Positions 33,135-56,876 of a stretch of DNA of 64,000 bases are shown piece after piece; the first letter of the stretch is position 1, and every line of letters starts with the position of its first letter. A program made the position numbers and the translations under genes. Under the pieces are notes generated by a model. That model was not told where the DNA came from, made no database searches, and saw only the letters and a list, made by a program, of their open reading frames with translations. Where the stretch lies: NCBI RefSeq assembly GCF_021049285.1, contig NZ_CP088017.1, forward strand, positions 186,001 to 250,000. Direction: 5' to 3'. This DNA comes from Ruania halotolerans (lineage in GTDB: Bacteria; Actinomycetota; Actinomycetes; Actinomycetales; Beutenbergiaceae).

Positions 33135-33270
33135 GGCCCCAGCCTGCCACGAGCCTGCACGCCGTGCCCCGGCGCGTCGCATGGTTGGCGGACTCCGTGA
33201 GTGGCGAAACTGGCGTCGAAAAAACTCTGGCGCGCTCCGCCGTCGGCATCTACCGTGGTGCGCACACGGG
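33135..33270. other. Promoter-side part of the 348-bp gap 33135-33482
   Basis: This stretch lies upstream of the LLM gene (minus) and of the micro-ORF (plus). No convincing sigma-70 promoter was picked out. The only notable piece is an A-run (GTCGAAAAAACTC near 33215-33227) about 65 bases before the micro-ORF start. The rest of the gap holds the micro-ORF and structured RNA described separately. Confidence 0.4.
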
Positions 33271-33284
33271 AAAGGAGGTGATCC
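33271..33284 (+). promoter_or_regulatory. Full-length anti-16S Shine-Dalgarno sequence
   Basis: AAAGGAGGTGATCC is a 14-base perfect complement of the conserved 16S rRNA 3' tail (GGATCACCTCCTTT), far longer than the usual 4-6 bases. It ends five bases before a GTG that opens a 12-codon frame. GGAGG-to-GTG spacing is about 11 bases, slightly long. It could drive very strong initiation, stall initiation, or hold ribosomes. Confidence 0.8.
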
Positions 33285-33289
33285 GAGAA

Positions 33290-33328
33290 GTGAATTTTCT
33301 TCGGACGCGTGAGGTGACTGTCCGCTAG
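33290..33328 (+). CDS. 12-codon micro-ORF (MNFLRTREVTVR)
   Basis: GTG start at 33290 and TAG stop at 33326-33328 encode the peptide MNFLRTREVTVR behind the extreme ribosome binding site at 33271-33284. It is far too short for usual gene finding. The peptide is Arg-rich and has no Cys, Trp or repeated codon that would mark a classical attenuator. Codons 9-11 overlap GGTGACTG (33313-33320), which can pair with CAGTCACC at 33392-33399, so a ribosome on the frame would block that pairing. The next downstream gene is on the opposite strand, so this is not an obvious leader of a coding gene. Translation is inferred from the RBS only. Confidence 0.5.
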   Translation: MNFLRTREVTVR

Positions 33329-33465
33329 TCGCCCGTTACTGACACGGACGGATTTGCCGTCTCGTAGGTGCGCGCACTGGCGAGACCACGGCAGTCACCG
33401 GAAGCCCGCGGGGGCCACCATTCGTCCAGGTGGCACTCGGCACCAGCCGAGAACCCGCGGGCTTC
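33313..33465 (+). ncRNA. Candidate structured RNA with a compact three-way junction
   Basis: Four sets of perfect complements line up. P0: 33313-33320 with 33392-33399 (GGTGACTG/CAGTCACC), enclosing a small hairpin 33347-33351/33357-33361. P1: 33401-33412 with 33454-33465 (GAAGCCCGCGGG and its complement, 12 bp). Inside P1, P2: 33414-33419 with 33429-33434 (GCCACC/GGTGGC). P3: 33436-33441 with 33446-33451 (CTCGGC/GCCGAG) on an ACCA loop. Junction linkers are only one, one and two bases. P0 and P1 are separated by one base and could stack. No T-tract follows, so a plain terminator is not favoured. The strand is inferred from the upstream micro-ORF; the junction would also fold from the minus strand as the 3' end of the gene at 33483. 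Confidence 0.5.
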
Positions 33466-33482
33466 ACCATGCTCGCTGACGG

Positions 33483-33977
33483 TCAGAACGCCCCTGCCAA
33501 GCCGGCGATCACCGTGATCACCGCGATCACACCGACCAGGATCAGGAGAGTCAGGCCGAAGATCTTCCCGAAGCCCCATCTCTTGGTCTGTACCCCGTAG
33601 GTCCCAAGGCGATCGGTCCACCAGCGCTCGGGCGGCATCCCCTCCTGCATCACCCGCTGGTTGTACTGCTCCACGGACTCCCACTGGTGCGGTGTGGGAT
33701 GGGCGCCGCCGAGATCCACCTTCACCTTGCCGGTGGCCGTCTGCAGCGTCAGGTAGGACTGCGCCCCGCCGACGTTGGGCATATAGGTGGCCTTGGTGAT
33801 CTCCTGCGGCCGTACATCGAGCACCACCTGCAGGTCACCCAGTGGGGACGTGTCAATGACCTGGATGCGATCATCCGCCGTCCACACCAATCGTGCTGGC
33901 TGAACCTGGAACACCGTGGGCCCGGTGCTGCGAGAGACGTTCAGGCTGACGTCACGTGCCTGGTCGGGCATCGACAT
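33483..33977 (-). CDS. Small membrane protein with C-terminal anchor, unknown function
   Basis: 164-aa protein I do not recognise with certainty. Residues about 1-125 are soluble and beta-rich (TVFQVQPARLVWTADDRIQV, SYLTLQTATGKVKVDLGG), reminiscent of a small PH-like or LURP-like barrel. A single helix closes the protein (IFGLTLLILVGVIAVITVIA, about 138-157). With no signal peptide the domain should face the cytosol, tail-anchored in the membrane. It is divergent from nei with 46 bp between starts. Its 3' end abuts the three-way-junction RNA. Start: the ATG at 33977; a second ATG two codons in is possible. Confidence 0.65.
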   Translation of the reverse strand: MSMPDQARDVSLNVSRSTGPTVFQVQPARLVWTADDRIQVIDTSPLGDLQVVLDVRPQEITKATYMPNVGGAQSYLTLQTATGKVKVDLGGAHPTPHQWESVEQYNQRVMQEGMPPERWWTDRLGTYGVQTKRWGFGKIFGLTLLILVGVIAVITVIAGLAGAF

Positions 33978-55820: not shown

Positions 55821-56831
55821 TCAGAGGCTGCGGTCCCCGGCGATGATCCGCCCCACCCGTGCCTCCGACGCGGGCGAGAACACATCCCGGTACTCGGCCA
55901 GAGCGCGGGCTGCGTCGCTCATCACCAGGTCGGCGTTGATCACGGCACCCGCCTGACCGCCCGCCGCCGCAGCCGGCCCGACCTGGGCGGCCATGTCGGT
56001 CACGTTCCCCGCAGCCCACACACCCGGCACCGCCGTCTTCCCGGTGATGGCCTCGGCCGGGATGTGTACGCCCATCCCGCTCGGATGTTCGGTGGGGGTC
56101 AGGCCCAGTCCGGAGAGGAAGCCGGCCCGTGCCACCATCTGGGTCGCGACGGCGATCGCCTCCCTGGCCACGACCGTTCCGTCGGCCAGGCGCACCCCGG
56201 TGATGGCTCCCGCGGACTGCTCGACCGCCGTCACCTTCCCCTCGATCACCCGGATGCGGAGCGCGGCCAGCTTCTCCAGCTCCTCCTCGTCCAGGGCCGC
56301 CTGATGGCTGAACACCACGACGTCGTCGGAGAGCTGGCGGAACAGCAATGCTTGGTGAGCTGTCATCGGACTAGTGGCCAGCACCCCGATCGCCCGGTCG
56401 CGGACTTCCCAGCCGTGGCAGTACGGGCAGTGCACGACGCCGTGGCCCCACTGCTCGGCCAGTCCGGGTACGGGTGGCAGCTTGTCCACCACTCCGGCCG
56501 TGACGAGGATTCGCCGGGCACGGGTAGTGCGTCCATCGGAGAGGCGCACCTCGAAGTCGTCCACACTCCCGACGACGTCGCTCACCTCCCCGGAGAACAT
56601 CTCGCCTCCGTAGCTGCGCACCTCCTCCTGGCCCCGGGCAATCAGTTCTGCCGGGGGAGTGCCTTCGCGGGCGAACAGCCCGTGCACGGCATCGGCCGGT
56701 GCGTTGCGGGGCTGGCCGGCATCGATGACGGCCACGCTCCGGCGGGAGCGGGCCAGCATCAGTGCGCCGTTCAGCCCGGCGGCGCCGCCACCGATCACCA
56801 CTACGTCGTATGAGTCCTTCAGTTCGGTCAT
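55821..56831 (-). CDS. Thioredoxin reductase-like FAD/NAD(P) oxidoreductase
   Basis: 336-aa class II pyridine-nucleotide disulfide oxidoreductase. The FAD motif is DVVVIGGGAAGLNGALMLAR, and the redox-active pair Cys135/Cys138 lies in HCPYCHGWEV. GVWAAGNVTDMAAQVGPAAA closes the FAD site. The start at 56831 follows an AAGGAGG site. No thioredoxin gene is adjacent, so the disulfide partner is unknown; such stand-alone CPYC proteins also include dithiol oxidases of natural product routes. It is divergent from an XRE-cupin regulator gene with an 8-bp direct repeat in the promoter. Confidence 0.87.
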   Translation of the reverse strand: MTELKDSYDVVVIGGGAAGLNGALMLARSRRSVAVIDAGQPRNAPADAVHGLFAREGTPPAELIARGQEEVRSYGGEMFSGEVSDVVGSVDDFEVRLSDGRTTRARRILVTAGVVDKLPPVPGLAEQWGHGVVHCPYCHGWEVRDRAIGVLATSPMTAHQALLFRQLSDDVVVFSHQAALDEEELEKLAALRIRVIEGKVTAVEQSAGAITGVRLADGTVVAREAIAVATQMVARAGFLSGLGLTPTEHPSGMGVHIPAEAITGKTAVPGVWAAGNVTDMAAQVGPAAAAGGQAGAVINADLVMSDAARALAEYRDVFSPASEARVGRIIAGDRSL

Positions 56832-56876
56832 GGGGACCACCTCCTTGCTCCGCAGCCTGCCGCCTGCCGAGAGCGG

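Follow-up and report, generated by a model that had tools for sequence, protein, structure and literature searches.

An Ms_IGR-5 RNA of Ruania halotolerans carries a micro-ORF interlocked with its predicted fold and may be operated by the ribosome

The window analysed here is a whole 64-kb stretch of the Ruania halotolerans genome, and positions 33264-33470 of its plus strand encode a real structured RNA. In a cmscan search, this segment matched the Rfam model RF02471 over its full length (model positions 1-184) at 89.6 bits against a curated cut-off of 45, and it was the sole Rfam match above a cut-off in the window. The initial annotation knew of no named RNA family with this layout, a statement that the match overturns: the sequence family is already known, and the locus is a member of Ms_IGR-5. 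The segment has a predicted folding energy of -105.4 kcal/mol, compared with -79.2 ± 4.8 kcal/mol in 200 shuffles (z = -5.5), none of which was equally stable. There is one clear copy of the RNA in its own genome (4.27 Mb, one contig). We rejected a selenocysteine tRNA candidate on the minus strand opposite the 3' domain (33404-33462), which scored 24.8 bits against a cut-off of 47; this sub-threshold match is most likely a chance product of the stems. The features of the locus are given in Table 1.

Table 1. Features of the Ms_IGR-5 locus, with positions counted along the window
Feature	Position	Strand	Remarks
Predicted promoter	33219-33256	+	A-tract 33219-33224; -35-like CTGGCG 33227-33232; -10 TACCGT 33251-33256
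Ms_IGR-5 family RNA (RF02471)	33263-33470	+	About 205 nt; predicted 5' end 33263 ± 1
P1	33265-33311	+	CACG 33265-33268 / CGTG 33308-33311; compensatory events
SD1	33270-33284	+	GAAAGGAGGTGATCC, complement of the 16S rRNA 3' tail; -30.5 kcal/mol duplex
Micro-ORF	33290-33328	+	GTG...TAG, 12 codons (VNFLRTREVTVR); first residue Met if initiating
Pseudoknot, 5' strand	33303-33307	+	GGACG, codons 5-6; pairs with 33423-33427
SD2	33311-33316	+	GAGGTG (codons 8-9); followed after 6 nt by the last sense codon
P3	33313-33322/33390-33399	+	Helix of the initial annotation, extended; compensatory events
P4	33323-33329/33376-33382	+	Spans 33323-33382; 7-nt strand (CGCTAGT) includes the stop codon
P5	33401-33412/33454-33465	+	Closes the 3' domain; three pairs tested, each with 9-10 compensatory events
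P6	33414-33419/33429-33434	+	Hairpin, GCCACC/GGTGGC; loop 33420-33428
Pseudoknot, 3' strand	33423-33427	+	CGTCC, within the P6 loop; pairs with 33303-33307
P7	33436-33441/33446-33451	+	Hairpin, CTCGGC/GCCGAG; lineage-specific
Convergent ORF	33483-33977	-	164 aa with a hydrophobic C-terminus; lies outside the RNA

The IGR names seem to stem from a paper cited in PMC3828370, and the IGR-5 name probably goes back to Li et al. in its reference list. Ms_IGR-5 is transcribed in S. lividans (PMC8079986), forms an sRNA transcription unit in S. avermitilis (PMC8780764), and overlaps an sRNA of M. smegmatis (PMC10454040). PMC4974804 places Ribo-seq reads on Ms_IGR-5 in both M. abscessus and M. smegmatis, likewise places ribosome footprints on 6C RNA, and concludes that ribosome-protected non-coding RNAs 'lack clear evidence of translation'. 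The accessible parts of the open-licence literature searched gave no function for Ms_IGR-5 and made no mention of an ORF or a 16S complement in it. 6C RNA and Ms1 are also widespread actinobacterial sRNAs, but they belong to families other than Ms_IGR-5.

At E ≤ 0.001, RF02471 was detected in 24 of 24 family, 120 of 297 order, 192 of 296 class, and 57 of 296 phylum genomes (overlapping samples) and in 0 of 14 control genomes; matches above the curated cut-off were found in 24, 116, 191, and 26 genomes, respectively. Among the matches listed, hosts included Mycobacterium, Amycolatopsis, Frankia, Cellulomonas, Nocardioides, Micromonospora, Salinispora, and Occultella, with one match per genome except for a single genome (G655) with two. 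We also constructed a model of the 5' module, R1, from 64 of 166 distinct 5' modules. R1 detected 180 of 396 phylum genomes, compared with the 57 of 296 for RF02471 at the same threshold in an overlapping sample, and by hand count about 140 of the 396 had R1 matches with E ≤ 1e-7. Weak R1 matches (E of about 1e-4) are partly due to chance, as with one in the RNA's own genome (2.5e-4) and with L376 and L377; when 12 weaker matches were inspected by eye, nine were homolog-like, two were chance matches in coding sequence, and one lay at a contig end. No RF02471 match occurred among the genomes listed for f5, a family of the same order, which is a candidate for lineage-specific loss of the RNA. 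One f5 genome had a weak R1 match (6.4e-4). A one-pattern search found no copy of the RNA in viral contigs.

Comparisons were based on a first set of 175 loci (L002-L176), which includes the window's own locus and in which L073, L117, and L168 were re-anchored by hand, and a further set of 40 more distant loci hand-picked from R1 matches outside the first set. Since these relatives were collected with models spanning the 5' region, similarity there was selected for; R1 selection favoured similarity in this region, but not the ORF frame. Compensatory changes were counted as same-branch events in 171 of the 175 sequences (four near-identical rows were dropped and seven rows were hand-shifted by one column), using a tree built with the P3-P6 columns included and those of P1 and the pseudoknot excluded. 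An additional alignment, A1, held 70 sequences hand-picked from 132 non-redundant ones, with most of the distant loci left out.

Across 173 upstream regions, an A-tract (-43 to -41), a TTG (-36 to -34), and a TAnnnT (about -13 to -7) were moderately conserved, at roughly 50-77% per base, and these promoter-like elements would place the transcription start at P1. A survey of 1.5-kb flanks at the 175 loci, with genes predicted by a simple script, found mixed orientations of the upstream and downstream neighbours (53, 50, 36, and 31 loci, with 5 others). No neighbour family tracked the RNA in this survey, which yielded 145 clusters, the largest of 23 proteins; this apparent lack of a conserved neighbour gene is new relative to the literature searched. 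Together with the promoter-like conservation and the sRNA unit described in the S. avermitilis study (PMC8780764), it agrees with the earlier suggestion that the RNA may be free-standing, which it probably is. The same observations bear on whether the RNA is merely the convergent minus-strand gene's 3' UTR or terminator. Although 12 nt separate the end of the Rfam match from the stop codon of that gene and P5 could act as a terminator in both directions, SD1, the ORF, and the promoter-like region all belong to the plus strand, the neighbours vary from one relative to another, and the distribution of the family contradicts such an origin, which we find scarcely credible.

The 5' part of the RNA contains SD1, whose partner is the 16S tail GGAUCACCUCCUUUCU. 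When wobbles were allowed, 156 of the 175 loci had 16 contiguous pairs with the tail, 17 had 15, and one each had 12 and 8. Pairing of this segment with the whole 16-nt tail, as judged from complementarity, appears to be new relative to the literature searched. SD1 was the strongest site in a scan of both strands of the window at every second position, with the next (-24.5 kcal/mol) at 56831-56850 on the minus strand. This second site contains AAGGAGGTGGTCC shortly before the ATG of an ORF that we presume to be flavoprotein-like from a motif. In the 4.27-Mb genome, the 13-mer AAGGAGGTGRTCC occurs at only five places, namely the RNA itself, the far strand of two 16S genes, the window at about 56834, and L180. 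Ordinary fold prediction suggests that SD1 would be only moderately open, with a mean unpaired value of 0.44 versus 0.33 for the whole RNA, the former being the higher in 125 of 173 RNAs.

The strength of SD1 within the window and the rarity of its 13-mer both favour a ribosome decoy, or 16S-tail antisense. In such a case, the 16-nt complement would occupy the anti-SD of free 30S subunits, lowering leadered and raising leaderless translation, and the ORF would merely follow from a start codon being within reach. However, a decoy needs neither a stop at a fixed distance from SD2 nor a pseudoknot and P1 and P3 in the ORF, all of which are described below, and we regard this explanation as rather improbable.

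The micro-ORF stands out by its frame. In the frame of the GAG-GTG codons, a stop was found five codons beyond GAG in 174 of 175 loci, and an ATG, GTG, or TTG was found 5-12 nt past GGAGGTG in 160 of 175, compared with 7 and 9 of 175 in the other frames. Counting only frames open from such a start to a stop gave 160 versus 6 and 0. A frame-blind rule, requiring a start 4-13 nt past GGAGGTG and a stop 6-12 nt past a GAGGTG, recovered an ORF in 173 of 175 loci of the first set and in 40 of 40 further loci; with ATG, GTG, or TTG the counts were 160 and 35, versus 70 in 4300 shuffled spacers. L021 failed the scripted rule, yet reads ATG...TGA by eye, and no start was recognised in L023. In a count of 163 distinct 5' domains, the stop was TAG in 142, TGA in 17, and TAA in 3 (one of these mis-anchored), and the start codons varied among ATG, TTG, and GTG. 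The spacing from SD1 to GAG took any value between 35 and 45 nt, that from the start to GAG was 21, 24, or 27 nt, and ORF length ranged from 10 to 17 codons. At some loci the only in-frame start is AUU, AUC, AUA, or CUG, where initiation could be weak or absent. Starts of the AUU, AUC, and AUA types are known for weak, IF3-sensitive initiation. We observed an AUU, AUC, or AUA at SD spacing in L162, L163, L165, L171, L372-L375, and L378, with those of L372-L375 and L378 read by eye.

The encoded peptide is a poorer candidate for what is kept. Summed over codons 5, 6, 7, 10, 11, and 12, there were 142 substitution events at first positions and 91 at third positions, and this greater change of first positions implies that the peptide is not what is kept. 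Codon 7 encodes R, C, L, S, E, P, and other residues, while P1 stays paired. Furthermore, 5 of the 40 further loci read GAGGTG in another frame yet retain the start and stop, which argues that translation, rather than the peptide, is conserved. Hence, the micro-ORF appears from these comparisons to be conserved as a frame and not as a peptide, which is new relative to the literature searched. A small-protein gene with the 12-residue peptide as its product would account for the conserved start and stop, and an (M)xxxRTREVAAR-like sequence recurs in much of the first set. Yet substitutions in the peptide fall where P1, P3, and the pseudoknot vary, third positions are no freer than first ones, length is variable, and the peptide becomes SGG...-like in the five shifted loci, making a selected protein very unlikely.

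The second Shine-Dalgarno-like site, SD2, lies within the ORF and is invariant in the first set (175 of 175), although its partners in P3 vary; in L378, one of the weaker R1 matches read by eye, UAGGUG replaces GAGGUG. The stop follows SD2 at 9 nt in 173 of 173 first-set loci and at 9 or 8 nt in 40 of 40 further loci; in the five shifted-frame loci this spacing is 8 nt, and the last sense codon begins 5 nt beyond SD2. The usual distance from an SD to the P site is about that from the end of SD2 to the last sense codon. Because SD2 precedes the last sense codon by 6 nt, or 5 nt if shifted, a terminating ribosome would have SD2 in the position of an SD. Internal SD-like sites are disputed as a cause of pausing.

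Three helices incorporate the ORF. P1 closes the loop carrying SD1 and the start codon, and its 3' strand consists of codon 7 and the first base of codon 8. It was 93-99% paired across the first set and had 20 compensatory same-branch events over three pairs, versus 1.2 expected. The initial annotation had described 33313-33320 (GGTGACTG) and 33392-33399 (CAGTCACC) as exact complements, with the helix within codons 8-11 of the micro-ORF, and both statements are correct. This complement grows by one G.U and one C-G pair into P3, for which we counted 31 compensatory events over six pairs versus 2.9 expected. P4 had 10 events over four pairs (5, 1, 1, and 3) versus 1.2 expected, and its inner arm (33330-33375) is variable. 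The compensatory changes in P3 and in the closing stem of the 3' domain bear out the proposal that the RNA is structured and coupled to the micro-ORF.

P4 and P3 are separated on their 3' sides by an internal loop (33383-33389), which holds a GAAUCC(A)-like word in many relatives and AGACCAC here; part of this word could also pair with UGGAU of the 16S rRNA. RNAfold favours a start-codon hairpin for the window sequence, P2, formed by GUCC after SD1 and GGAC of codons 5-6. We rejected P2 as a conserved helix, given zero compensatory events at three pairs, two at the fourth (0.9 expected there and 1.1 over all four pairs), and an A-C mismatch at one pair in 19 sequences; P2 may be a lineage-specific alternative helix. 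The structure of RF02471 in Rfam pairs the SD segment GGUGGU with GCUGCC and is without P1, P3, and the pseudoknot. It agrees with our comparative fold in P4 and P5 but differs from P1 and P3 in its 5' stem, the compensatory test having covered P1 and P3 rather than the Rfam 5' stem.

The closing stem of the 3' domain, P5, consists of 12 perfect pairs (GAAGCCCGCGGG/CCCGCGGGCTTC) and, as first described, encloses exactly two perfect 6-bp hairpins, with linkers of 1, 1, and 2 nt. A motif in which a 12-bp stem encloses two hairpins of 6 bp or more, with linkers of at most 2 nt, occurred once per strand reading in the 64-kb window and was absent from 40 dinucleotide shuffles of the window (one strand read), in agreement with the view that this geometry is unlikely by chance. 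Covariation had been proposed as a check, and the branch-event test shows it in P5 and in the stem of P6, the first hairpin: P5 had 29 compensatory events over three pairs versus 2.5 expected (171 sequences), and P6 had 11 over four pairs (3, 2, 4, and 2) versus 0.9 expected. The word GUCC occurs in the P6 loop at 168 of 175 loci. P7 is missing from some relatives in A1 (e.g., L002, L004, L060, L062, and L064). Thus, the three-way junction is present here, but with P7 being lineage-specific it is not the conserved heart of the RNA. That heart, as far as comparison indicates, is P1, the long SD, the micro-ORF, and P3, apparently along with a pseudoknot that links the ORF and the first 3' hairpin in most relatives examined.

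This pseudoknot was absent from the initial annotation and is new relative to the literature searched, and its covariation is supported by comparison. There were 7 compensatory events over five pairs versus 1.05 expected (171 sequences), of which 2, 1, and 4 fell on the three pairs variable on both sides (p = 0.0025, 0.02, and 0.03) and zero on the two nearly invariant pairs. Sliding the columns by one gave 0, 0, and 0 events (+1) and 0 and 0 events (-1), and an unrelated control pairing (49-158) gave 2 versus 1.2 expected. In A1, 94.9% of pseudoknot cells were paired, compared with 87.3% in shuffles (0 of 500 as high) and at most 49.4% when slid; three of the five pairs had double changes, as many as in 2 of 500 shuffles. 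Word pairs seen by eye were GGAC/GUCC, CGAC/GUCG, AGAC/GUCU, and UGAC/GUCA. The further set adds AGAC/GUCU (L346 and L351) and UGAC/GUCA, the latter in eight RNAs of f32, f40, and f48 with a 6-7 nt complement, and the first pair occurs as G-C, C-G, A-U, and U-A. By eye, the word was kept in 34 of 39 further loci with a complete 3' part, and no GUC-loop pseudoknot was seen in L354, L363, L366, L368, and L370.

A strict all-pairs test with a simulated, phylogeny-keeping null was applied to the 175 sequences and to 141 that remained without distant and near-identical rows. Several P5, P1, and P3 pairs reached E < 1 in this heavy-tailed test, and the pseudoknot pairs were not significant: pair 49-152 had E = 4.1 and 24.7, and pair 45-156 had E = 80 in one set and was invariant in the other. 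We count this outcome against the pseudoknot, for which our case draws on branch-wise events, on the controls with slid and shuffled columns, and on additional relatives. Automatic loop pickers were too permissive or chose other hairpins, with one returning GTCC for 130 of 188 GGAC rows (other words or none for the rest) and GTCA for one of eight TGAC rows. We instead used a swap test, omitting five of 215 RNAs (L021, L344, L366, L368, and L370). A complement of XGA(C/T) was present within 75 nt past P3 in 17 of 23 non-GGAC RNAs, compared with 28% when non-GGAC words were sought in the 3' regions of GGAC RNAs. The complement was present in 175 of 187 GGAC RNAs, and GTCC in 11 of the 23 others. 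When scored by longest complement, the eight TGAC RNAs outdid almost every swapped region, whereas most CGAC, AGAC, and GGAT RNAs did not.

Nine loci, comprising the five without a visible GUC-loop pseudoknot and L380-L383, likewise without one by eye, have a P1-like 5' end, SD1, and a short ORF with SD2 in another frame. A plain terminator-like hairpin follows in L354, L363, L366, L380, and L381. These nine are seemingly reduced or divergent forms.

The anatomy of Ms_IGR-5 resembles that of leader-peptide attenuators such as those of trp and erm, with a strong SD, about 12 codons, and helices that include codons and the stop. As helices in both cases include codons and the stop, translation would have to change the fold. 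Unlike attenuators, Ms_IGR-5 is without a downstream cis gene to control, its 3' domain closes on the ORF through the pseudoknot, and it has a second SD at a fixed distance from the stop. The downstream gene is on the same strand in only 89 of 175 loci, no neighbour family unites the loci, and the next gene here is convergent. We therefore disfavour a cis-acting attenuator of a downstream gene, which seems highly doubtful despite the likeness. SgrS and RNAIII, known as dual-function sRNAs, are likewise small RNAs with an ORF. In contrast to these, RNA shape rather than peptide appears conserved over the ORF of Ms_IGR-5, and the ORF is interlocked with the fold; with no third-position excess and a shifted frame over SD2 in 5 of 40 loci, it lacks the peptide selection of a dual-function sRNA.

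A plain trans-acting, base-pairing sRNA deserves more weight. It would act on mRNAs by way of an unpaired segment, ribosome binding would be a side effect, and the ORF would only protect or destabilise the RNA. Annotations in M. smegmatis, S. lividans, and S. avermitilis list the RNA among the sRNAs, and it has no conserved neighbour gene. However, conservation is highest in SD1-ORF-SD2 rather than in a target-like seed loop, and retention of the ORF in 173 of 175 first-set loci and in all 40 further ones is unexpected for a side effect. We consider such an sRNA unlikely, though not far-fetched.

Comparison among relatives supports the RNA family, its predicted helices and pseudoknot, the ORF, SD1, SD2, and the promoter-like region, and the Ribo-seq reads from M. 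abscessus and M. smegmatis speak for contact with ribosomes. The reading that we prefer, on which our confidence is evenly balanced, is that Ms_IGR-5 is a free-standing actinobacterial RNA operated by the ribosome, with a fold meant to be opened by it. In the unread state, codons 5-6 would be held by the loop of the 3' hairpin, codon 7 by the RNA's own 5' end through P1, and codons 8-12 and the stop would be locked by P3 and P4. SD1, placed between the strands of P1 with the start codon after it, would dock a 30S subunit, and translating about a dozen codons would unzip the pseudoknot, P1, P3, and P4. A ribosome at the stop would have SD2 at SD distance from its P site and may pause there or stay after termination. 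The RNA would then have two states: closed and ribosome-free, or open and ribosome-held with a freed 3' domain, that is, the P6 loop and the 3' strand of P3. The most likely output would be reporting or buffering of ribosome availability, by holding ribosomes, by presenting the 3' domain only while occupied, or both. We infer the opening of the fold by translation, the pausing at SD2, and the output from anatomy.

A more specific proposal, which we put forward only tentatively, is an autonomous 'ribosome latch' with no selected protein and no cis gene. One passage of a ribosome, starting at SD1, crossing about 12 codons, and ending at a second SD shortly ahead of the stop, would switch the RNA between a pseudoknotted form and an open one that holds the ribosome. 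In the 12-codon type, 33 nt, or roughly the length of one ribosome, separate the P sites of start and stop, so the RNA might even seat two ribosomes. Neither this anatomy nor the mode of action proposed from it was found in the accessible parts of the literature searched.

Ms_IGR-5 is kept across much of the phylum, and the R1 model finds the family more widely. Operation by the ribosome would give this RNA a concrete, testable role. If true, it would explain published ribosome footprints on a 'non-coding' RNA. With start, stop, and spacing kept but peptide and frame not, Ms_IGR-5 would be a clean case of selection on the act of translation.
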